NCBI GenBank assembly: GCA_025698865.1
Contig: JAILWQ010000001.1
Location: forward strand, 744,001 to 808,000
Reading direction: 5' to 3'
Length of the DNA: 64,000 nt
Source: Erythrobacter sp.
GTDB lineage: Bacteria; Pseudomonadota; Alphaproteobacteria; Sphingomonadales; Sphingomonadaceae
Positions 42,104-54,013 of the stretch are shown here, piece by piece (positions within the stretch are counted from its first letter, which is position 1; each line of letters opens with the position of its first letter). Made by a program: the position numbers and the translations under genes. The notes beneath the pieces are model-generated. The model was not told the origin of the DNA and made no database searches. It was given only the letters and a program-made list of their open reading frames with translations.

Positions 42104-44128
42104 ATGTGCGGCATTCAGAACGTCACCCGCAAGCAGGGCACGTATTATTACCGCAGACTCATACGTTTAGGCGCTGATAAGCCTTTTCGAATACGCTTCT
42201 CGCTCAAGACAACCAGCCGCAAGCGCGCAGGGCTGCTCGCGCCGGCCCTGACCTTGATCTGCGAAAGGGTCGCGATGAACATGATGAGCAATATGGCGCG
42301 CGACGGGCTGGACAGTGCGCAAAGAGCCGAGATTTTCCGGCGCCAGATTCTGATCGAACGCGACCGGCTGGAGGCGATGCATGCCAGCCTTCACGTGCTT
42401 CCGCCCGAAGACCACGACGATATCGGCAAGGCGCTCACGCTTCGCCTGGGCGCAAGCGAGATGGCCGCGCAGGATGGCGCGATGCAGGGCAAGGTCGAAG
42501 ATTTCCTCGTTGCCCGGATCGATCCCGACAATGACGACGAGGACATCGTGGTCCTCGCCTGGTCGGATCTCGCTGCCTCGATCGAGCACGAAGGGGCCGA
42601 ACAGGCCGCGGTCGCCCGGTTGTCCGAGCTTGGCATGGAGCAATCCGCATTGCGCGAGGCAATGGCGCGCAAGGTCGTTAACGAGGCGCGCATCGTCGCC
42701 ATCCGCGAATTTAGGGAGGTGCTGGCTAATCCTGGCTCGATCTACGAGCCCGTCCCGCGGAGCGAACGCGAGGTGCCTCCGCAGTGTGCCGCCGCACCCC
42801 TGGTCCCTTCCGCGCCTTCCCCCGCCCAGCCCGCGGTGACAGGTCCTTATGCGACCATGACGGCGACCGAAGCGCTGGAGAAATTTTTCGAGCACAACCC
42901 CAAGACCGGCGGCAAGGACGGGAACTCAAGACGGAAGAACGGGCAGGCTTGGCAAGCGAACACGCGCAAGCAGGCGCGGGCCTCCGCGCGCCTCTTAGAG
43001 CAGGTTATGGAAGGCCGGCCGCTTGCGCAGATTACGCACGATGATCTGGTTACCCTCAATAATTGCTTCGAAAACGTGCAAGGTGCGACCTTCCTGCGAT
43101 CGCCGAAGCAGCAGGGGATGACCATTTTCGAGATCGTTGATGAATATGCGGCTCTCATTGCCGAGAACGAGAAGCCTGCAGAGAAGGGGGAGAAGAAACC
43201 GGAGGGTGGCAGTGAAGGAGTGAATGCAGCGACGCGATTGACCCGAAAAGACCTTGGCCTGGCCTTATCGACAACCAATCGCCACTTTATCCTCCTTCGT
43301 CAGCTGACAAACTGGTTCTCTCGACACCAACCGATTGCCGATCTGGATTACAGCGCCTTTATCATGAAAAAGCGCGGCAACGCTCGGAAGGATCGGCCAC
43401 GCTATACGGAAGAGCAAGGGCGGATGATCTTCGGCCTCCCACCTTGGACGGGCACGGCATCTCCCAAGCGCCGAATGCAGCGTGGCACGAGCATCGTGCA
43501 TGATTCCTGGTATTGGGTCCCGATGATCGCCTGGTATACCGGCATGCGTCTCGACGAGATCAGCAGTCTCGAGCTCGACGAGATCGAGTTAGAAGGCGGG
43601 CATTGGCAGATTCAGGTGAAGCCGAATTCGCTTCGCGGTTTGAAGACGGATAGCTCCGAGCGCGTTTTGCCGGTGGCGAGCCAGCTGCTGAAGCTGGGTT
43701 TCGACAAATACATCGAGGCTCTCCGTGCCGAAGGCGAATGGCTTCTCTTCCCCGAACTGCTGCCCGAAAGCGGCATAGGGACCTTGGGCCGCGCATTCTA
43801 CAAGACGCGGTGGACTCACCTCGCCAAGCAGCTGCCGTTTCTCGTAGAGGGCCAAGCCAACCACTCGTTTCGGCACACGGCAATCGACGCGATGAAAGCA
43901 GCTGGCATCCCGAGCGAGATACGCGCGGACTTTGCCGGGCATAAGCTTCTGTCGGAAACCGAAGGCCGCTACTCTGACGCGCATATGAATTTGCTGCGCG
44001 AGGCCGCAGAAACCATTCCACAGGTCACGGACGACCTCACGCCCCACCCTATCAATCTGTTACCCAAACGACTTCGACAACCGAGGAAGGCGCGCCCAAA
44101 AAAGGCCAATTCATCTGAAAAATGTTAG
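42104..44128 (+). CDS. Tyrosine site-specific integrase with long N-terminal region
   Basis: A 674-residue recombinase. The N-terminus (VTRKQGTYYYRRLIR) is like the DUF6538 arm-binding domain of island integrases, and a helical/charged region runs to about 240. A SAM-like core-binding domain lies about 250-420. The catalytic domain has WYTGMRLDEISSLELDEI (first Arg), HSFRHTAIDAMKAAG (His-x-x-Arg), AGHKLLSETEGRY (second His and the nucleophile Tyr). It faces the minus-strand restriction operon and is the likely mobilising enzyme of the 42-54 kb island. No att repeat or tRNA was found at its end. Confidence 0.9.
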   Translation: MCGIQNVTRKQGTYYYRRLIRLGADKPFRIRFSLKTTSRKRAGLLAPALTLICERVAMNMMSNMARDGLDSAQRAEIFRRQILIERDRLEAMHASLHVLPPEDHDDIGKALTLRLGASEMAAQDGAMQGKVEDFLVARIDPDNDDEDIVVLAWSDLAASIEHEGAEQAAVARLSELGMEQSALREAMARKVVNEARIVAIREFREVLANPGSIYEPVPRSEREVPPQCAAAPLVPSAPSPAQPAVTGPYATMTATEALEKFFEHNPKTGGKDGNSRRKNGQAWQANTRKQARASARLLEQVMEGRPLAQITHDDLVTLNNCFENVQGATFLRSPKQQGMTIFEIVDEYAALIAENEKPAEKGEKKPEGGSEGVNAATRLTRKDLGLALSTTNRHFILLRQLTNWFSRHQPIADLDYSAFIMKKRGNARKDRPRYTEEQGRMIFGLPPWTGTASPKRRMQRGTSIVHDSWYWVPMIAWYTGMRLDEISSLELDEIELEGGHWQIQVKPNSLRGLKTDSSERVLPVASQLLKLGFDKYIEALRAEGEWLLFPELLPESGIGTLGRAFYKTRWTHLAKQLPFLVEGQANHSFRHTAIDAMKAAGIPSEIRADFAGHKLLSETEGRYSDAHMNLLREAAETIPQVTDDLTPHPINLLPKRLRQPRKARPKKANSSEKC

Positions 44129-44162: not shown

Positions 44163-47100
44163 CTACCACGCCGCGGCGAGAAGTTCGGCCTGCTGGATGA
44201 CGGTCTGCACTGCAGCATCCTGAAGGTCTGGTGGGTAGCCGTATTTGCGCAGGATGCGCTTCACCAGAACGCGCATCCTCGCACGAGCAGATTCGCGGTG
44301 CGCCCAATCGACGCTGGCGTTCGCCTTGAGGTTCTCGACCAGTTCAGCAGCGATGATCTTGAGGCTGTCGTTGCCCATGATATCGACAGCGCTCTCGTTG
44401 TCCGCCAGCGCTTCGTAGAAGGCAATCTCCTCGTCGGACAACCCTTCCTCTTCACCGCGCGCCAGCTTCTCGCGTATTTCCTTGGCGAGCTCGATCAGCG
44501 TCTGCAGCACCTCGACGGTGCTGACCGCATTGGTGTGATAGCGCGCGATCGCGGCCGTCAGCCGTTCGGAGTATTTCCGGCTTTCGACAGCGTGCGTCTG
44601 CGATCTTGACCGGATCTTGTCGGCCAGCAGTTTCTTGAGGGCTTCAAGCGCCAGGTTGGGCCGCTCGCTATTGCGCATTTCGGCCAAAAACTCATCGGAC
44701 AGTATAGAGATGTCCGGCGACGCCATGCCTGCCGCCTGGAGGATATCGACGATCTCCGTCGAGACGACTGACCGGTCGATCAGCTGCTGAACCGCCAGTT
44801 CCCGGTCCTTTTTGGATTTCGTCGCGCCGCTGCTCTTCACCAGCGCGGCCCGCACGGTCTGGTAGAAAGCGACCTCGTCGCGGATGGCCTTTGCCTCGTC
44901 GCTTGCGGATGCGAGGGCAAAGGCCTTGCTCAGGGCCAGGACCAAATCCTGGAAGCGACGATGTGCGGCCTTTTTCGCGTCGTCGGTCGTTTCCTTTTGC
45001 GCAGCCTCATGCTGTCGCGCCAGTATCCACTCCAGCGCCGCGGCGAGACACTTCAACCGCTGGCTCGGTGTTCCGTGCATTCCCGGCCCGCAATCGAAGC
45101 CATGGAACATGGCGCTGACGACTTCGAACCGCTCGAGCATGACGCGGATCGCCAGCTTCTCGTCGATACCGGTCTTTTCACGATCGGATGGCGAATAGAT
45201 GCCGAGTGCCGCCTTCAGGTTCTGGGCGATGCCGATGTAGTCGACGACGAGCCCCGCTTCCTTGTCGCGGAAAACGCGGTTCACACGGGCGATCGCCTGC
45301 ATCAGGCCGTGGCCGCGCATAGGCTTGTCGATATACATCGTGTGCATCGATGGCGCGTCGAATCCCGTCAGCCACATATCGCGCACCAGCACGAGCTTGA
45401 GCGGATCGTCCGGATCCTTGGCGCGCTTGGCCAGTTCATCCCGCCGGGCCTTGCCGCCGATATGCGGCTGCCATTCCTGCGGGTCCGAAGCGCTCCCAGT
45501 CATGACGATTTTCACCACACCCTGCGCCACGTCGTCCGAGTGCCAGTCCGGGCGCAGGGCAACGATTTCGTCATAGAGCGCCACGCAGATACGGCGGCTC
45601 ATGCACACGGCCATCGCCTTACCGTCCAGCGCCTCCAGACGCCGTTCGAGATGTTCGACCAGATCGGCGGCGACGAGCTTCAACCGGGCTTTCGAGCCTA
45701 CCAACCGTTCGACAGCGGCCCAGCGCGCCTTCAGCTTTTCTTGGTCCGAGACAGCCTCGTCCTCGGTCAGTTCCTCCACCTCGGCATCAATGAGCGGCAC
45801 CTGATCTTCCGGCAGTTCGATGCGTGCCAATCGGCTTTCGTAGTAGATCGGCACGGTGGCACCGTCTTCCACCGCGCGGCTGATATCGTAGATATCGACA
45901 TAGTCGCCGAACACTGCGGGCGTGTTGACATCGTCCTTTTCGATCGGCGTTCCGGTAAAGCCGATGAAGGAAGCGTTGGGCAGCGCGTCACGCAGATATT
46001 TCGCATGGCCGTAAGCCCGCTTGCCGGTTCGGGGATCGATACGCGCGCGGAAGCCGTATTGCGATCGATGCGCCTCGTCCGCCATCACGATGATGTTCTG
46101 CCGTTGGCTGACAGGCGGGAGTTCATCCTCGCCCTCGGCCGCAGCGAATTTCTGGATCGTGGTGAAGATGACGCCGCCCGCCGCCCGGTCGAGCTGCGTG
46201 CGCAGATCGTCGCGGCTATCGGCCTGCACCGGTTTCTGCCGAATGAGATCGCTGCACATGGCGAAAGTGCCGAACAGCTGATCATCGAGATCGTTGCGAT
46301 CGGTGATCACGACGATGGTGGGATTTTCGAGAGCCGGATCGCGGACGAGCAGGCCGGCATAGAACGCCATGAGCAGGCTCTTGCCCGAACCCTGGGTGTG
46401 CCAGATCACCCCGATCTTCTTGTCGCCCGGTTCCTGTTCCGCCTGGCTCGGCAAACCGTATCTGAGCGGACTTTCACGCAGCGAACCACCGCGACGGTCA
46501 GTCGCGTAGGGCAGCGCGCGCAAGGTTGCCGACAGCGCGTTCCGGGCAGCGAAGAACTGGTGATAGGCCGCAACGATCTTGACGATGCCGTTGCCGGTAT
46601 CACCGAACACCGTGAAATCGCGCAGCAGCCGGAGCAGGTTGCCGCGGTCGAACACGCCCTTCACCAGCGTTTCGAGCTGAGGGTCGGTGGTCGGCGCGAT
46701 GGTTTCACCATCGACCGAGCGCCACGGCATGAACCGCTCTTCATCCGCGGTGAGCGAGCCGACGCGCGCCTTGATACCGTCAGACGTGACCAGCACGGCA
46801 TTGGTTCGAAACAGCGAGGGTATCTGCGCCTTGTAGGTCTGGAGCTGGTTGAACGCGCCGGACAAGGTGGCGTTCTCGTCGCCGGGGTTCTTCAGTTCCA
46901 GCACACCGAGGGGCAGGCCGTTTACAAACAGGACCACGTCCGGGCGTCGGTTGTATCCCTGCTCAATGACGGTAAACTGGTTTACGGCCAGCCAGTCATT
47001 CTGATCGAACCCGCCGCTGCCGCCGAAATCGATCAGGCGAACCCGATCGCCGCGCATATTGCCGTCGTCGTAGAATTCGACTGGCACGCCTTCGACCAGA

Positions 47101-47375
47101 TACTGGTGAAGCCGCCGGTTCTCCTCGACCAGCGAAGGCGTCTCGCTGGCCAGGAGCCGCCGGATGGCCTCCTCGCGCGTGGTAGCCGGGATCGACGGAT
47201 TGAGGCGTGCCACCGCGTCGCACAGCCGTTCGAGCAGCAAGACGTCGCGATACGCATCGCGCAATGGCTGCGCGCTGTCCGGCGACACGTCAGGCCCGTG
47301 CGCAATTGTCCACCCCAGCTCACCGAGCCATTCGAGCGCCGCCTCCTCGACATGGTCCTCGGCGAACTTGCCCAT
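44163..47375 (-). CDS. hsdR: Type I restriction enzyme R subunit
   Basis: A 1070-residue motor/nuclease subunit. ATG 47375 was chosen because it overlaps the upstream NYN stop (TGATG). The nuclease has RPDVVLF (Asp146) and GVLELKNP (Glu160, Lys162), a PD-ExK site. The SF2 translocase has Walker [14 protein letters not shown] (about 327-333), the DEAH-type box [11 protein letters not shown] and later motifs [28 protein letters not shown] and [10 protein letters not shown]. The C-terminal helical domain docks on the methylase. It is the last gene of the hsdM-hsdS-NYN-hsdR run. Confidence 0.97.
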
Positions 47376-48001
47376 CACCAACGCGCCGGCTTCTGGAACT
47401 GCCCGACCGCGTCCGTCAGTCCGTTGGGGAATTGGGCATTCGCGAGTGCGCCCGGGCGGATCGGCTTTATGAAATGCGCCAGCGGCCTCAGCGCCTGGCT
47501 TACATTCTTCTGAGGGTTCAGGAGGCCGATGGTCTTTTTGAATCTGTTGCGGACCTGTTCGATCGGCCCTTTCAGATCGCTATCGTTGCTGATGATGACC
47601 GCGCAATCAAAAAGATCATCGAAGGCATCGACGAGCAGCATGGTGGCCAGGTTGACGTCCGATCCCTTCTCTTCCGTCTTGATGACCCTGCGCGCAAGAT
47701 ACTTGCCAACCTGCCACGCGGCGGCATCCGGCATGTTTACCTCGTGCGTCAGGAAGTGGCCGAGATGGATGCTGATTTGCGGGACCGTCGCAAGGGCCCG
47801 AAAATAGGTCTGCTGGCGTGTCGCCTGATCCGGATCGTTGGGCCTCGAACTGACCTGAGCGGTAAAGTAGCGGGTCCGATCAATCCGGTTTCTCGGCAGC
47901 AAGTTGCAGCACAACGCATGGACGTTGAGCCATTTATTCGGTCGCCCCTTCAGGCATCCGTAATAGAGATTGAAGCCATCGATATAGACCCGTGTCCGCA
48001 T
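47375..48001 (-). CDS. NYN-domain (PIN-like) ribonuclease inside the type I operon
   Basis: A 208-residue protein from ATG 48001. NYN/DUF88 acidic motifs are all present: [10 protein letters not shown] (Asp8), [17 protein letters not shown] (Asp115, Asp125) and [16 protein letters not shown] (Asp140, Asp142). These residues bind metal in related single-strand RNases such as the PIN/NYN group. Its stop shares bases with the hsdR start, and it follows hsdS after about 207 bases without a gene. The coupling suggests a job connected to the restriction complex; RNA cleavage is predicted from the fold only. Confidence 0.88.
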
Positions 48002-48208
48002 GGTGACGGTATTAGGGGGCTGCGCCCTGACACGAAAGGATTTATCGGGATTCAAGGCGTGGGCGAAAATTCGGACCCCAGATAAAGCAGCGGCGACCCC
48101 GAAGGATCGCCGCGCACCTTGGCCCCGAAGCGCCAAGGGAGATATCTGCCGCCATATAATCGCCAATCGTTGCCGGTCAATGAATTTGCGATAATCGGAA
48201 GGCAGGTG

Positions 48209-49510
48209 TCACAGCGTCTCCTCCATCTTTCGTTCAGCTTCCGCGACGCGGATTTCGCCGGACATCAGCCTGGGGAGCAGCAGGTCGCGGGTGTGCGCAA
48301 GGGTTTGATTTTCCGCGCGGTTTGCCAGAACTTTCTGCATCAGGCTCATGACGATCTCGCCAAACGCCGCGAAGGCTTGCTCATGACCAATCAAGACCTC
48401 TAGCGATCGCAAGGCGGGTGGGCTTACTCTCTGGTGGCTCTTCGAGGTGCCGGTCACCATGCCTTCGAGGCGCTGCCGGAAAGTCTGGTTGCTGAATAGC
48501 GAATGGAGAAGCGCAGGAGAAATGTCGCCCTTCGCCGTGAAGGCAAGGAATTCTGTAGAGGCTATCTGGCGAACCGCACCCTTGTCTTGCGGCCACCACA
48601 CCCGAGATATCTCAGGATTCAGTTTGGACAACAGGATCGCACCTTCAGGCACAATCGTCTTGCTGCTCTTGATGGAATCCCCCATCTCCAGGGCTGGTTG
48701 TTGGCCGCTGTCGTAGGCTGGCAGGCTGAAATGCTCGAATACTTCGGACGCGGCATCCATCGGCTTCAACGATTTCGTATGGTGATTGGCGATCTCGTCA
48801 ACACGATAGGCTCGCCACCCTTTCGGCACGCCGTTGTCGTCGAGGCGGTTGGGGAAGAGGGACCAGAGGTCCGGCGCGAGATAGGGGCCTGCTCCTGCAT
48901 CCGGGCCGGCCATCTTGGCCTTCACCGGGCCGAAGTCGACGAACCAGTCGCGGAACAGCGCCTGCGCCTGCGCTTCCAGCGTTTCGTTCATCCGCCGATT
49001 CAGTTCGATCTTGTCGTCAATTGACGACACAAGTTCGACTATCCCATGTTGATCGCGAATTGGCGGTAATCGAAATTTGAACTGCCGGAGCGCCGATACG
49101 TAGAGATTTTTTTGCACGCTACCTTCAGCAAGTGTTTCCACCTGCGCGCGCCCAGCCCTCAGCGCATACATCGCAATCAATGGAAGCAGGCGCGCTCTAT
49201 CAGGTCGGACGTTTATAACAGCCCGATTGCCAGCAGCATCAATCCTGAGATACCCCACTCGCCCGATGGTCCCTGATTTACTTATCGCAAGAGTTTCAGC
49301 GGGGAAAAGAAAAGCAGATTTCCCTGCGCTCTTTAAACCCTCATGAGATAACGTTCGTGAGGTTTCGCTCACGTATCCATCGTTCAAGTCAACAGCTCTG
49401 AGCCAGTTGATCGGCCCATCGAAAAATGCCCGATTTCCCTGCGGCGGATTGACATAGCCCTCTTGGAACTCAGCGTAATCGCCCATCTCCACGATAGGCC
49501 AATCAAGCAT
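48209..49510 (-). CDS. hsdS: Type I restriction enzyme specificity subunit
   Basis: A 433-residue DNA-recognition subunit. Two target-recognition domains (about residues 1-160 and 215-380) are each followed by a helical spacer. The central repeat reads [42 protein letters not shown], and its C-terminal counterpart reads [36 protein letters not shown]. Start ATG 49510 overlaps the hsdM stop by eight bases. The target sequence cannot be deduced. Confidence 0.95.
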
Positions 49511-51056
49511 CAGTTGCGACCTTCGACATATTAGTGCGGATCGATTCTGTCAGCCGCTCGCCCTCATCGAATTGCTCTTCAAGCGTCGCCTGTAAGGCCG
49601 CAAACCGGTCGGCAAACGGCACGCCGTCGTCCTCGACATCTTCCGCGCCGACATAGCGCCCCGGAGTTAGCACATAGCCGTGCTTCGCCACGTCCTGATG
49701 GCTCGCTGAATAGGCAAAGCCCGGCACGTCCTCGTAATCCTTGCCTTCGCGCCAAGCGTGGTAGGTATCGGTGATCCGCGCGATATCCTCGTCCGAGAAC
49801 TCGCGCCGCGTGCGGTCGACCATATGACCGAGCTTGCGCGCATCGATGAACAGGATTTCGCCGCACCGATCGCGCAGCTTGGCATCACCCACCAGTCCGT
49901 TCGACTTGTCCCTCGCCAGAAACCACAGGCACACCGGGATCTGCGTCGAATAGAACAGCTGGCCGGGCATGGCGATCATGCAGTCGATCACGTCGCCTTC
50001 GACCATCGCCTGCCGGATCTCGCCCTCGCCGCTCTGCGTGGAGGACATGGACCCGTTGGCCAGCACCACGCCGGCCGTGCCCGCCGGGGCCAGATGGTGC
50101 AGGATATGCTGCAACCAAGCGAAATTCGCATTGCCCGCGGGCGGAATACCGAATTTCCAGCGCGCATCCTCGCGCAGCCGGTTGCCGCCCCAGTCCGACA
50201 CGTTGAAGGGCGGGTTGGCAAGCACGTAATCGGCGCGCAGGTCCGGCAATTCGTCGCGGTGGAAGCTGCCGTCGCTGTTCCAGCGAACGTCGGCATCGAT
50301 CCCGCGCACCGCCAGGTTCATCATGCAGAGCCGCCAGGTGGTGTGGTTCGATTCCTGGCCATAGACGGCGATGTCACCGATGCGTCCGCCGTGGTTCTCG
50401 ACGAACTTTTCGGATTGCACAAACATGCCGCCCGATCCGCAGCACGGATCGTAGACGCGGCCATCATGCGGTTGCAGCATCTCGACCATGGTGCGCACGA
50501 CCGAACGCGGGGTGTAGAACTCGCCGCCGCGCTTGCCCTCGGCCCCGGCGAACTGGCCAAGGAAGTATTCATAGACGCGGCCGAGCACATCGCGGCTCTG
50601 CCCCTCGTCGGACTTGAAGCCGATGCCGGAGATAAGGTCGATCAATTCGCCCAGCATCACCGGGTTGAGCGCAGGGCGGGCGTAATCCTTCGGCAGCACT
50701 CCCTTCAGTGAAGGGTTCACCTTCTCGATCTCGAGCATCGCCTCGTCGATCAGCTTGCCGATGCCGTGCTGCTTGGCGCTGGCTTGCAGGTGGGCCCAGC
50801 GGGCGGGCTTCGGCACCCAGAAAACGTTGTCGGCGCGGTATTCGTCCTCGTCCTCGACGCCGTCCGGATATTCCTTTTCCAGTTCGGCGCGCTTGGCCAT
50901 GAAGCCATCGGAAATGTGTTTGAGGAAGATCAGGCCGAGAACGACGTGCTTGTAATCCGACGGCTCCATATTGGCGCGGATCTTGTCCGCTGCCTTGAAC
51001 AGCTCGGCCTCGAAACCGAGGTCACCCCCTTTGGAACTGTTTGTTTTCTTTGCCAT
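49503..51056 (-). CDS. hsdM: Type I restriction enzyme methylase subunit
   Basis: A 517-residue N6-adenine methyltransferase. An N-terminal helical domain ([35 protein letters not shown]) is followed by the catalytic domain with motif [14 protein letters not shown], the amino-methylase motif [11 protein letters not shown] (NPPF) and [18 protein letters not shown] upstream of it. It modifies adenine in the HsdS target and is needed for both protection and cleavage. It is the first gene of the Hsd transcript. The exonuclease genes lie upstream on the same strand. Confidence 0.97.
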
Positions 51057-51249: not shown

Positions 51250-52077
51250 TCAGGCCGCGAGCGCTTGCGGATCGACTATTTTCGACAGCCAGGTGTTGTC
51301 CGGAAACCGCTCAGCAAGAGCATCGATGATCGCTGCATCGCCTGCGCCGGGAGAGCCGGACGCCGAGCCGGTCGCGAGGAAGTAGCGCCAGGCAACCTGC
51401 CCGATCGTGCAGATGTCCGCCGTCACCTGTGTCTCGACATGATCCCATACCTCGTGCCGCACCGCGAGCGAGATGTCCTTCGAGGGCAGCGGCTTCGATG
51501 CCACGCCGATCACCTCGCAGAACTCCGGCAGGTGAACGTAAGGAGCAAGGGAGCGCACTGCACTCGCCAGATCCAGTCGCGAACGTGCGAAGGGGGCCGG
51601 ATCGCGCAATTGCGGAGGCAGGATCATGCCTTGCTCGATTGCCGCGCGCTTGAGGCAGGAGAAGTCCTTGCTCTCCCCTCCCCAGCTCACCAACCTCGCA
51701 TCCGGGAACGTCGAGCACATGGCGAAGAAGGCATCCACGATGTCCGCTTCGGAGCAGTTCGTCATGGCCTCGATATTGCTGACGACGGGCCGGTCCATGT
51801 CGGACGAGACGGTGAGCATGCACCAGGCACCGGCGACGATCCGGTGAAAGGGCCAGCGCACGAAGCCCTGCGTGGGATCGCCCTCGGCGACCTGGTACCG
51901 CTTGAAGGCATCGGTGTCATAGAGGAATTCGAAATCGCAGACGATCACGCGCTGCCACGGGCTGCTGGCGGATCGATCGGCGAGGAAAAGCGCGGCTTCT
52001 TCGCCGAGGGTGTTGGCGTGATGGCGGAGATCCGCGCTCAGGTCGGCGGATTGAACGTGAGAAGATTCGTTGGTCAT
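51250..52077 (-). CDS. DEDD exonuclease-like protein, divergent
   Basis: A 275-residue protein from ATG 52077 (AAGGAAA upstream). The region around VIVCDFEFLYD supplies a DxE motif I, LVSWGGESKDFSCL corresponds to motif II with its Asp, and TQVTADICTIG provides an Asp like motif III. However, the Tyr or His expected four or five residues before that last Asp is missing, so activity is doubtful. It resembles the active exonuclease at 52801-53613 in layout and probably arose by duplication. The function is unknown. Confidence 0.7.
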   Translation of the reverse strand: MTNESSHVQSADLSADLRHHANTLGEEAALFLADRSASSPWQRVIVCDFEFLYDTDAFKRYQVAEGDPTQGFVRWPFHRIVAGAWCMLTVSSDMDRPVVSNIEAMTNCSEADIVDAFFAMCSTFPDARLVSWGGESKDFSCLKRAAIEQGMILPPQLRDPAPFARSRLDLASAVRSLAPYVHLPEFCEVIGVASKPLPSKDISLAVRHEVWDHVETQVTADICTIGQVAWRYFLATGSASGSPGAGDAAIIDALAERFPDNTWLSKIVDPQALAA

Positions 52078-52095
52078 GATAATTTCCTTGGGCAA

Positions 52096-52118
52096 CAAAA
52101 AGCCCGCAAGAAGCGGGC
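52096..52118 (-). terminator. Intrinsic terminator or attenuator before the 51250 gene
   Basis: GCCCGC (52102-52107) pairs with GCGGGC (52113-52118) around AAGAA and on the minus strand is followed by TTTTTG. It ends only about 20 bases before the start codon of the next gene, so it can terminate the middle gene's message or attenuate the one downstream. Confidence 0.65.
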
Positions 52119-52186
52119 GGGAAGATCTCGGTTAGGTGAAGCGGTCGCGCGTTAAGGCGGAGCGCGTGGGTGGCGGGACATCTCGA

Positions 52187-52744
52187 TCAATTCGAGACCA
52201 GTTCCGCACCGCGCCCGACCGCCTGGATCGCGAGGCGTCCGACCAGCTGCGTTTCGGCGATGATGGCGCTGTGCATGGAGAGCCGATCGCGGAACGCGCC
52301 GCAGTGCATTGCGACGACCAACTCGGCAGTCTCCATGTCGCCGCCCAGAGCATCCTCGATGCCGTCGGCATCGCGCAGGTGAACTTCGACCGACGGGATA
52401 GCGCTTCGACGAACAGCGTCCCGAATGACCCCGAGCAGGTCCACCACGTCCACCGGGCCTGGCATGTCCGCTTGCAGGGCCAGCCTTCTTGCCTGTTCAA
52501 CGAACTCGCGCATGGACCAGGTCACGAGCGGCTGCGTCTCGAGTTGCTCGGCGATCCACTTCAGCGCATCGGCATCCGGGTCGCAGTCGCCCCCGCCGAT
52601 CCAGCTGGAGCTGTAAGAGGTCCAGCGTCCATTCTCGAAGGTGAACCGGGTGGCGCCAGCAGCGAAGACGTGCAGGTCGCTGTCTTCGTTGCTCGCGTCG
52701 ATGGGACGCGTGCGCAGCGCGCACACGGTAAACGTATCTGTCAT
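52187..52744 (-). CDS. Degenerate DEDD-exonuclease-like protein
   Basis: A 185-residue protein from ATG 52744 (AAAGGAAAA upstream). No known family is claimed. By eye it aligns with the neighbouring exonuclease: LVTWSMREFVEQARRLALQ sits where the active enzyme has IVTWNGRGFDIPVLQLAAA, but the Asp is replaced by Val, and the first DxE motif is not evident. It may be a non-catalytic partner. The gene lies between two related genes and is bracketed by hairpins. Confidence 0.6.
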   Translation of the reverse strand: MTDTFTVCALRTRPIDASNEDSDLHVFAAGATRFTFENGRWTSYSSSWIGGGDCDPDADALKWIAEQLETQPLVTWSMREFVEQARRLALQADMPGPVDVVDLLGVIRDAVRRSAIPSVEVHLRDADGIEDALGGDMETAELVVAMHCGAFRDRLSMHSAIIAETQLVGRLAIQAVGRGAELVSN

Positions 52745-52766
52745 TTCAATTTTCCTTTCTTGCTCG

Positions 52767-52788
52767 ACCCCCGCAATCCTGCCGGGGT
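52767..52788 (-). terminator. Hairpin between exonuclease and middle gene
   Basis: ACCCCCG and CCGGGGT (one mismatch) face each other across about eight bases, directly after the stop of the active exonuclease gene. It is a weak terminator candidate and is followed 23 bases later by the ATG of the middle gene. Confidence 0.4.
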
Positions 52789-52800
52789 GAGAAGCTCTCT

Positions 52801-53613
52801 TCACATCTTGGACGGGACCATGGAGGCTCTGACAGCGCGCTGCTCTGCGCGCTCCACGATGCGATCGAAGTTCAGTGCTGCCTCGAGTTTATGGGCGCTG
52901 CGGAAGAGATCGAGGTCACGCAGGTGCTCGAGGTGCCCGAAGCGGCCTTGCCGGTCTGCTCCGAGCCAGCGGTCGAAGGCTGCCAGCGGGTACGCCAGTC
53001 TACCGGGATCGCCATAGCGCGAGGCCGAGTAGTGCAGCCATGCCAGCCAGGTGATGGCGACGTCTTCCTCGCAGTATCGGAACACCTGCTCCTCGCGTCC
53101 GTCGGCGATCATGGCCGCAACGCTGTCGCCGCTCCCCTGGGTCTTGGCACTGATGCCAAGCGCCTTGCATACGTTGGCCAGGCTCGGACGTCCCGCCCCT
53201 CCGAAACGGCCGTAGAGTTCGGCGAGGTCGGCATGGGTTATCGCCCAGCGTGGTGCTATCCACGCGGTGCGCAGGGCATTGTCCTCGAACAGCATCTGCC
53301 GCGCAGCGGCAAGCTGCAGGACGGGAATGTCGAAGCCGCGCCCGTTCCACGTGACGATGGTGGCGTTGGGATCGAGCAGTTCGAAAAGCCGGCGAAGGCC
53401 GTTCCGCTCGTTGGAGAAATCCACGGTCTCGATGTCGAACTCGTAATGATCTTTGACCTCCTTCTGGCTCAGCACACTGGCGCAAATCGGTTCGTGCAAG
53501 GGCCAAGGCGGGAATGAGCCGTCCTCGTTCTCGGGCGCCAAGGTCTCGATATCGAGCACTTGGACGTGTCCGGTCTGGTAGCATTCGGGAAAATCGTATC
53601 GTTGGTATTTCAT
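52801..53613 (-). CDS. Predicted DEDDy 3'-5' exonuclease (PolB-exo-like)
   Basis: A 270-residue nuclease from ATG 53613 (GGAGG eight bases upstream). Motif I is VLDIETL (Asp21, Glu23), motif II is VTWNGRGFDIPVL with its Asp, and motif III is YCEEDVAIT, a YX3D arrangement that marks DEDDy enzymes. The layout fits the predicted 3'-5' exonuclease family related to the proofreading domain of B-family polymerases. It degrades single-strand DNA or RNA ends by two-metal catalysis. It heads the minus-strand cluster that runs into the type I restriction operon. Confidence 0.86.
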   Translation of the reverse strand: MKYQRYDFPECYQTGHVQVLDIETLAPENEDGSFPPWPLHEPICASVLSQKEVKDHYEFDIETVDFSNERNGLRRLFELLDPNATIVTWNGRGFDIPVLQLAAARQMLFEDNALRTAWIAPRWAITHADLAELYGRFGGAGRPSLANVCKALGISAKTQGSGDSVAAMIADGREEQVFRYCEEDVAITWLAWLHYSASRYGDPGRLAYPLAAFDRWLGADRQGRFGHLEHLRDLDLFRSAHKLEAALNFDRIVERAEQRAVRASMVPSKM

Positions 53614-54013
53614 GGGTTCGGCCTCCGGCCCGAACCCGGCGAAGCACAAGCGAGCGTCCTGCTCCCTTTTCCATTCTTCCTCCCGGGTTCACCCGGTCTC
53701 TTCCCACCTTACGTTTTCTGCTTCCGTCGCTCCGGACAGGCTCGCGAAATCGCTGCCGTGCGAGACCGGCCGTTTTCTCTTTAGCTCGCGGGTCTCGATA
53801 GGCTTCAACCGCCACTTCACTCTTGCGCTTCGAACCGGAAGTGGGTGAACGGAATGTTTGATCTTCCGGTTGGCGCGCTGCGATGAGGTCCGCGATGCGG
53901 TCGCGTTCAATCCCACCGGCTAGCCCGCGGCCTTCCTACCGCCTTGGCTAGCTAATTATATAGGTGCCTAGATCTTTTGGGCGTAAGCTTAGGCTTCGGA
54001 AAGGGGTGTATAA
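53614..54013. other. Non-coding gap upstream of the exonuclease cluster
   Basis: About 400 bases with no gene I can support. The right third becomes AT-rich (GCTAATTATATAGG near 53950), and AGGGG sits just before the ATG at 54014. The left part should carry the promoter of the exonuclease cluster. No direct repeat matching the integrase end was seen. Confidence 0.4.

Follow-up and report, generated by a model that had tools for sequence, protein, structure and literature searches.

A conserved two-hairpin RNA accompanies NYN ribonuclease genes and lies with one of them inside a type I restriction operon of Erythrobacter

Introduction

On the minus strand of a 64,000-nucleotide (nt) stretch of Erythrobacter sp. 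DNA (GenBank assembly GCA_025698865.1, contig JAILWQ010000001.1; hereafter the window, in which positions are counted from its first letter), a type I restriction operon carries a gene for a predicted NYN ribonuclease between hsdS and hsdR. A sequence-only reading had given the gene order as hsdM-hsdS-NYN-hsdR and had noted that the NYN stop and the hsdR start overlap. Open reading frame (ORF) calls and Pfam matches bear out this order, and the TGA of the NYN gene and the ATG of hsdR do have one A in common (TGATG), with in-frame TTG and GTG codons slightly upstream of this ATG as alternative hsdR starts. The 207-nt gap between hsdS and the NYN gene contains a conserved structured RNA that was absent from the sequence-only reading, and the relation between this RNA and the ribonuclease is our subject here. 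The operon has the following features.

49503..51056, minus strand: hsdM, type I methyltransferase subunit (Pfam N6_Mtase, E=2.7e-107; HsdM_N)
48209..49510, minus strand: hsdS, specificity subunit (Pfam Methylase_S, E=1.6e-15; PADLOC Specificity_I)
48153..48180, minus strand: putative promoter of the RNA, TTGACC (48180-48175), 16 nt, TATATG (48158-48153), read by eye
48081..48143, minus strand: conserved small structured RNA, 63 nt, two hairpins, the second terminator-like (covariance model R1, 64.5 bits, E=1.1e-20; covariation)
48117..48138, minus strand: hairpin 1 of the RNA, with a cUUCGg-type loop (alignment A2)
48090..48113, minus strand: hairpin 2 of the RNA, terminator-like, then TGCTTTATCT, its T-run weaker than in the Rhodobacteraceae copies (alignment and terminator scan)
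47375..48001, minus strand: NYN ribonuclease gene of HEC-09 type, 208 amino acids, ATG at 48001 to TGA at 47375 (Pfam NYN, PADLOC HEC-09, AlphaFold2 model)
44163..47375, minus strand: hsdR, its ATG overlapping the NYN stop (Pfam HSDR_N, SWI2_SNF2 and T1RH-like_C; NCBIfam hsdR)

A conserved RNA with two covarying hairpins

The RNA forms two hairpins with a short linker between them and a T-rich tail after the second, and the 207-nt gap that holds it is conserved in alignment even beside NYN genes that stand alone. Its structure is carried by covariation in an alignment (A2) of 45 sequences from many phyla, from which L028, L089, L136, L140, L148 and L007 were omitted (loci are numbered with L and genomes with G). 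Both sides have changed in 18 of the 20 pairs drawn on this alignment, giving 160 double-changed cells against 40.0 (standard deviation 4.9) in shuffled alignments; none of 500 shuffles reaches 160, and the slid controls reach at most 33. RNAalifold, unaided, recovers 19 of the 20 pairs. At the base of hairpin 2 a G-C and a C-G pair are nearly invariant. A covariance model (R1) finds one strong match in the window, at 48143-48081 with 64.5 bits against 13 bits for the runner-up, this copy having belonged to the training set of the model. The terminator scan places a stem with a T-rich tail at 48113-48090, where 1.1 such sites are expected by chance in the whole stretch; the putative promoter, TTGACC-16-TATATG, was missed by the promoter scans, whose best score there is 7/12.

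The RNA matches no known Rfam family: searches of 24 loci against Rfam 15 at gathering cut-offs returned only RNAI (L017 and L018) and a tRNA (L086), and two further short stretches gave nothing above cut-off. The RNAI of L018 (344-445) precedes the hairpin array of that locus (577 on), described below. A literature search over titles and abstract openings of the best-ranked matches, with bioRxiv preprints and most subscription papers outside its scope, returned no RNA beside this NYN family and no NYN gene between hsdS and hsdR. Already known are the candidate HEC-09, genes embedded in restriction loci, and RNases restrained by RNA; the RNA itself and its association with an NYN enzyme left no trace in Rfam 15 or in this search and appear to be new.

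The NYN protein

The window protein is a predicted metal-dependent endoribonuclease. It matches the NYN domain in Pfam (PF01936, E=4.9e-12, over the cut-off) and no NCBIfam model. Domain and catalytic aspartate cluster place it among the NYN/PIN-like ribonucleases, and a match along its full length to the PADLOC model HEC-09 (PDLC04163, E=2.2e-44; residues 2-208 against 3-202 of 203 profile positions) places it in that family. The five acidic residues named in the sequence-only reading (Asp8, Asp115, Asp125, Asp140 and Asp142) are all present; in a 71-sequence alignment that includes the window, the last four are invariant and Asp8 is at least 90% conserved. L082 and L092 were excluded from the NYN alignment (A3), each having an in-frame stop within the matched stretch. 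An AlphaFold2 model is confident (mean pLDDT 96.3, pTM 0.90), and its top Foldseek matches are VPA0982 (2QIP) and the NYN domains of mouse and human MARF1 (5YAA, 6FDL); a sequence search of the PDB found no relatives at E 0.1. Among copies linked to hsd genes the ratio of nonsynonymous to synonymous substitution (dN/dS) is 0.02-0.13 (NG86; synonymous sites are near saturation for pairs with the window), the mark of purifying selection. Given this ratio and the confident model, the NYN gene is no chance ORF. The genome holds a second NYN gene (G000:C20:64466-64870, E=2.5e-35), and at E 0.01 R1 finds a single RNA in it, at the NYN gene of the window.

Linkage of the RNA to NYN genes

Run over loci L014-L109, R1 gives 98 matches at E 1, the two weakest of which (L059 and the second of L108) were not entered. 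Of the 95 loci with an NYN gene at cut-off (L029 had none), 82 have a match of at least 25 bits within 250 nt of that gene, five more have one below 25 bits (E up to 0.09) and eight have none. The eight include L018, a hairpin-array plasmid, L059, cut by a contig end, and some loci with a visible two-hairpin element that went unscored. The linkage extends beyond the sequences that built the model, to 51 of 64 loci outside it, or 47 of 60 when four whose sequence entered under another identifier are set aside; near-copies remain among these. A second set gives the same picture: 25 of 46 viral-contig NYN loci have a match of at least 25 bits, always adjacent to the NYN gene, some of them being near-copies of modelled loci, and those lacking a match mostly carry distant NYNs. 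The RNA is also found in all six genomes whose NYN gene is linked to hsd genes, and in a near-copy record.

The 82 RNAs lie upstream and co-directional in 60 loci, upstream and divergent in 6, and downstream and convergent in 16, all 16 outside the model. These divergent and convergent arrangements indicate that the RNA is encoded by its own gene instead of being a leader. A promoter-like site of at least 9/12 stands before the RNA in 40 of 75 cases (5% in shuffles), and in 30 of these 40 the -10 box ends 6-10 nt ahead of the RNA. Among the 20 RNAs encoded opposite to NYN, 9 have such a site, where about 0.4 are expected; of the 87 matches of at least 25 bits, 13 were omitted from the promoter count (near-copies, second copies, four of the lowest-scoring, one at a contig end, and L028). 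Within 3 kb of NYN, as far as contig ends allow, the most frequent protein cluster, an integrase, recurs in 5 of 75 loci; a protein antitoxin was rejected on this ground. Taken together, the linkage, the promoter-like sites and the lack of a recurrent protein neighbour argue against a simple leader and leave the RNA as the only conserved NYN partner found.

Repeated and variant RNAs

Small plasmids of E. coli (4.6 kb, L018 type) show by eye hairpin 1 repeated four times, then the terminator and the NYN gene; TRF resolves 2.6 copies (96%) of a 33-nt unit and one diverged copy. Of 5426 E. coli genomes, 10 carry near-identical copies, in each case on a plasmid. Two whole RNAs stand in tandem ahead of NYN in L144, L151 and L386, and R1 finds spaced copies in L142, L150 and L169. 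As TRF finds an upstream array only in L018, type III-style tandem repeats were rejected as a general rule.

Extra RNA copies near NYN-RNA loci lie at L044 1629-1696, L060 9253-9323, L064 6669-6728, L066 3976-4036, L142 89-149 and 1201-1261, L144 2183-2247, L151 1286-1352, L169 2983-3042 and L386 1362-1414. Distant NYNs on Klebsiella and other plasmids (L414-L419) are preceded by another short motif, GCGATTNAGTT, and then a terminator, the motif being repeated in L414 (by eye); this is perhaps a second RNA class.

The association with type I restriction genes

The sequence-only reading had proposed that the NYN enzyme is a back-up killer or guard that senses inhibition of the restriction complex, comparable to PrrC. 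Part of this stands, in that the protein belongs to a family of defence candidates (HEC-09), lies in a slot for defence cargo and has kept its link to hsdR within one clade; against it, most relatives have no hsd genes. The hsdM-hsdS-NYN-hsdR order was looked for in other genomes, with hsd genes near NYN sought by tblastn using the hsd proteins of the window, a search that distant type I systems could escape, and the family proved to be rarely beside hsdR. Most relatives found are solo, on plasmids, prophages and islands. All three hsd genes surround NYN in four of the 80 best loci from genome contigs (a fifth, L109, has a 30% hsdM match only), and these four are the four closest relatives (75% identity), all from Rhodobacteraceae/Paracoccaceae. 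Within the taxonomic family of the window, 10 of 249 genomes have an NYN relative, the window's included, and none of the nine other loci has recognisable hsd genes within the regions retrieved; nor has any of 20 loci from the class (flanks of about 1.5 kb) or of 14 plasmid or phage loci. A sample of 345 Rhodobacteraceae/Paracoccaceae genomes gave ten with NYN, of which three, at 74-75% identity, adjoin hsdR and the others do not within the available flank. Hsd genes accompany three of the 46 viral-contig NYN loci: L370, a near-copy of L030 (97.7% identical over 3596 nt), and two that duplicate L030 and L031.

In all, the hsd-linked arrangement is known from six genomes, counting the window, and one near-copy record, which make up all the NYN copies found at 73% identity or above. 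From the hsdR side, a close hsdR occurs in 21 of 385 genomes of the class and NYN lies in the retrieved stretch only for the window's own (13 of the 20 other matching genomes were retrieved at length and 7 were not), and in Rhodobacteraceae NYN accompanies 3 of 27. The divergence of NYN, hsdM and hsdR is roughly parallel within the hsd-linked clade. The NYN tree unites the six hsd-linked copies, with a weak branch (94/26, in a bootstrap that had not settled) excluding a solo copy from Erythrobacter dokdonensis. With the family rarely beside hsdR, sensing of type I inhibition cannot be an obligate role of NYN; an obligate hsdR guard was rejected as the general function of the family, most NYN loci examined having no recognisable hsd genes nearby. 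Because nearly all close members, whether solo or hsd-linked, possess a structured RNA of their own, the RNA is a likelier controller than HsdR.

The cargo slot and its surroundings

We oriented 32 loci of the window's hsdR family for the interval between hsdS and hsdR, and ran Pfam and PADLOC on chosen slot ORFs (20 proteins each). Cargo fills the slot in most of them; a few lack any convincing gene there, and in L164 and L217 the interval, of 9 nt and 15 nt, is empty. By profile this cargo comprises Abi_C, PIN_12, DUF4411, an IrrE-like HTH peptidase, SIR2-like, FRG (PDC-S15), RloAB-like HEC-01, DUF1828/1829 (PDC-M24B), PDC-M04AB, PDC-M23AB, PDC-S11, PDC-S67 and DUF6615, and three loci hold NYN together with further cargo. 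Partial text of two earlier reports describes comparable residents: DarTG2 occupies the hsdS-hsdR slot in enteropathogenic E. coli (PMC12255303), and rlo genes, in Campylobacter, and prrC have been found in type I loci (PMC2610378). The varied contents make this an accessory slot of a known kind, in which NYN is one of a number of alternative effectors. One cargo FRG protein (PDC-S15; L161 7941-9224) ends in a stretch similar to the C-terminal domain of HsdR (T1RH-like_C, E=1.9e-7) and may thereby dock at the site of HsdR.

A 674-residue phage-type integrase (42104-44128) adjoins the 3' end of hsdR in the window and suggests that the operon lies on an integrated island. Upstream of hsdM, on the same strand (51250-53649), are two DNA_pol_B_exo2 genes (PolB-type 3'-5' exonuclease) and one gene with no Pfam match.

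Comparison with known systems

The closest parallel in layout is with the type III toxin-antitoxin systems, which are recognised by a promoter, a tandem array, a terminator and a toxin gene (PMC8860590; PMC5086642). As in ToxIN, CptIN and TenpIN, a small structured RNA, a terminator and an endoribonuclease gene (its activity here being predicted) follow in this order at most loci, and the hairpin array of the E. coli plasmids matches the type III layout. A terminator-like stem stands between RNA and putative toxin gene in the window and in the 60 co-directional loci, but not in the other 22. The window differs in having one RNA unit and no tandem array, as is usual here, and the RNA is sometimes divergent or convergent. 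The putative toxin has an NYN/PIN-like and not a ToxN/MazF-like fold, so the locus is not a member of ToxIN, CptIN or TenpIN. AbiF-RCd22 of Clostridioides difficile (Rfam RF03085) likewise has a conserved RNA motif and a terminator before an RNase-type abi gene, according to excerpts of its description, but its RNase is of the HEPN type and its RNA is different (PMC12373285); Rfam searches gave no known family for the window RNA.

HEC stands for Hma-embedded candidate, and HECs are predicted defence genes inside another system, as the available portion of their description states (PMC12988326). The window gene is embedded in a type I restriction operon, and the passages seen on HEC-09 mention no RNA partner. 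The CRISPR-associated NYN of Bacteroides fragilis studied by Chi and White shares the NYN fold, the catalytic aspartates and the nearest structures (2QIP and 6FDL) with the window protein, while its context is CRISPR and not a type I operon; excerpts of that study report non-specific Mn-dependent activity and loss of cleavage in the D13A mutant (PMC11346440).

Like prrC in the EcoprrI type IC locus, the NYN gene is a predicted RNase gene within an hsd operon. It differs in that only the NYN domain is found by Pfam, with neither an ABC ATPase nor an anticodon-nuclease domain, and in that its family is mostly solo, with its own RNA. The antitoxin of DarTG is a protein and not an RNA. DarTG2 of enteropathogenic E. 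coli and the rlo genes of Campylobacter resemble the NYN gene in using the same slot or type I inserts and in being toxin-antitoxin or RNase cargo, as far as the excerpted reports go, but their proteins are unrelated to NYN (PMC12255303; PMC2610378).

What the RNA may do to the NYN enzyme

That a separate structured RNA pairs with an RNase gene on mobile elements, whatever their relative orientation, is most readily explained if the RNA restrains the RNase. We consider it probable, with some reserve, that the type I restriction operon of the window has captured a type III-like RNA-NYN toxin-antitoxin module. Several readings compete with this one. The RNA could instead be a substrate, cofactor or guide of NYN, which would mature it or pick targets with it, the RNA and not free NYN being the effector. 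Tight linkage in any orientation suits any RNA-protein partnership, the near-invariant base of hairpin 2 fits such a role, and trimming of CRISPR RNA (crRNA) has been proposed for the CRISPR-associated NYN in the excerpted text (PMC11346440). Most copies, however, are single units with no obvious variable guide part, their variable bases being mostly paired and covarying, and the repeat array of the E. coli plasmids looks like an antitoxin precursor, so that we regard this reading as unlikely. It is slightly less attractive still to see the NYN-RNA pair as a plasmid or phage maintenance cassette, without a role in defence, that landed in the operon by chance, a view compatible with restraint by the RNA. 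The NYN protein is matched by 441 PLSDB plasmid records and three phage records, integrases lie near 5 of 75 loci, and the window integrase adjoins hsdR; but the unit has been kept between hsdS and hsdR under purifying selection across some 25-30% protein divergence, and other slot cargo turned over while it stayed. We rate such a chance landing as rather improbable.

A PrrC-like guard, in which HsdMSR would keep NYN inactive until phage anti-restriction proteins free it, accords with the nested gene whose stop overlaps the hsdR start, with the adjacency to hsdR of every copy found at 73% identity or above, with the clustering of hsdR-adjacent copies on the tree and with defence effectors as slot neighbours. 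It is nevertheless improbable, as recognisable hsd genes are missing from the neighbourhood of most family loci and the module retains its own RNA even within the operon. Least credible of all is a cis-acting leader or attenuator of NYN (and hsdR) transcription: the terminator-like hairpin 2 does lie directly before NYN in co-directional loci, but promoter-like sites accompany the RNA and the divergent and convergent RNAs led us to reject it.

Several observations weigh against restraint of NYN by the RNA. The dosage logic of ToxIN, built on operon and terminator, cannot apply to the 22 of 82 loci whose RNA is divergent or convergent. Tandem units, usual for type III antitoxins, are exceptional, the window and most loci having one, and hairpins upstream of NYNs divergent in sequence are weak or of another kind. 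At E 0.01 R1 matches 25 of 119 genomes of the window's family, mostly weakly: only the window and G113 (59.8 bits) exceed 40 bits and the rest fall below 35. G113 has no NYN relative, its RNA (G113:C23:16052-16110) lying a few kb from a gene that we label, by reading, as a prophage-like S49 protease. Among viral loci with the hairpin pattern, of which 80 of at least 120 stretches were scored with R1, four reach 50 bits, one with NYN and three without; the pattern scan mostly caught unrelated hairpins. The three strong copies with no NYN in their record (L284 769-831, L302 7135-7195, L315 10261-10324) come from viral contigs that may be fragments. Since one phage is known, from part of the report, to counter ToxIN with a ToxI-like RNA antidote (PMC3475682), we would guess by analogy that these copies might serve counter-defence. 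The excerpt of one Pseudomonas survey gives a correlation between HEC-09 and phage susceptibility (PMC12447246). Finally, NYN may process the RNA instead of being inhibited by it; trimming of crRNA has been proposed for the CRISPR-associated NYN (PMC11346440).

Restraint of NYN by the RNA would work as follows. The NYN gene and the 63-nt RNA would form a single mobile module with the RNA as dedicated partner. The RNA, made in excess by virtue of its own promoter and terminator, would bind NYN and keep its nuclease activity low, as in type III and AbiF-like RNA antitoxins; the RNA of AbiF-RCd22 neutralises its protein, a different RNase, in the excerpt of that work (PMC12373285). Expression of NYN, and in the window of hsdR too, would depend on read-through or on the hsdM promoter, and the overlap of the two genes may couple their translation. 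If a phage shut down host transcription, or if the cell lost the island, the RNA would be the first to decay, leaving NYN free to cut RNA and arrest growth; AvcID is triggered when transcription shuts off, by the excerpted account (PMC10511110). Capture of the module into the hsdS-hsdR cargo slot would let DNA-cutting and RNA-cutting layers be inherited together, with the NYN stop overlapping the hsdR start. Because the terminator-like stem stands between hsdMS and NYN-hsdR, hsdR would be expressed less, or later, than hsdMS.

Implications

More tentatively, and with rather less confidence than we place in restraint at this locus, these data may outline an undescribed, phylum-wide immune or addiction module in which an RNA of about 60 nt with two hairpins restrains NYN on plasmids, prophages and chromosomes; here it would be coupled to HsdR output, and the NYN-less RNAs of phages would be stolen antidotes like pseudo-ToxI. 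The restriction operon described here carries an RNA and an RNase gene as a unit between its specificity and cutting subunits. If the RNA does control NYN, PIN-like nucleases would be added to the folds used by RNA-controlled toxins, and one RNA family would mark such modules in many phyla. HEC-09 would gain its missing half, and an NYN gene cloned without its RNA may fail or kill. Counter-defence by phage-borne RNA copies becomes testable, and R1 permits an immediate survey.
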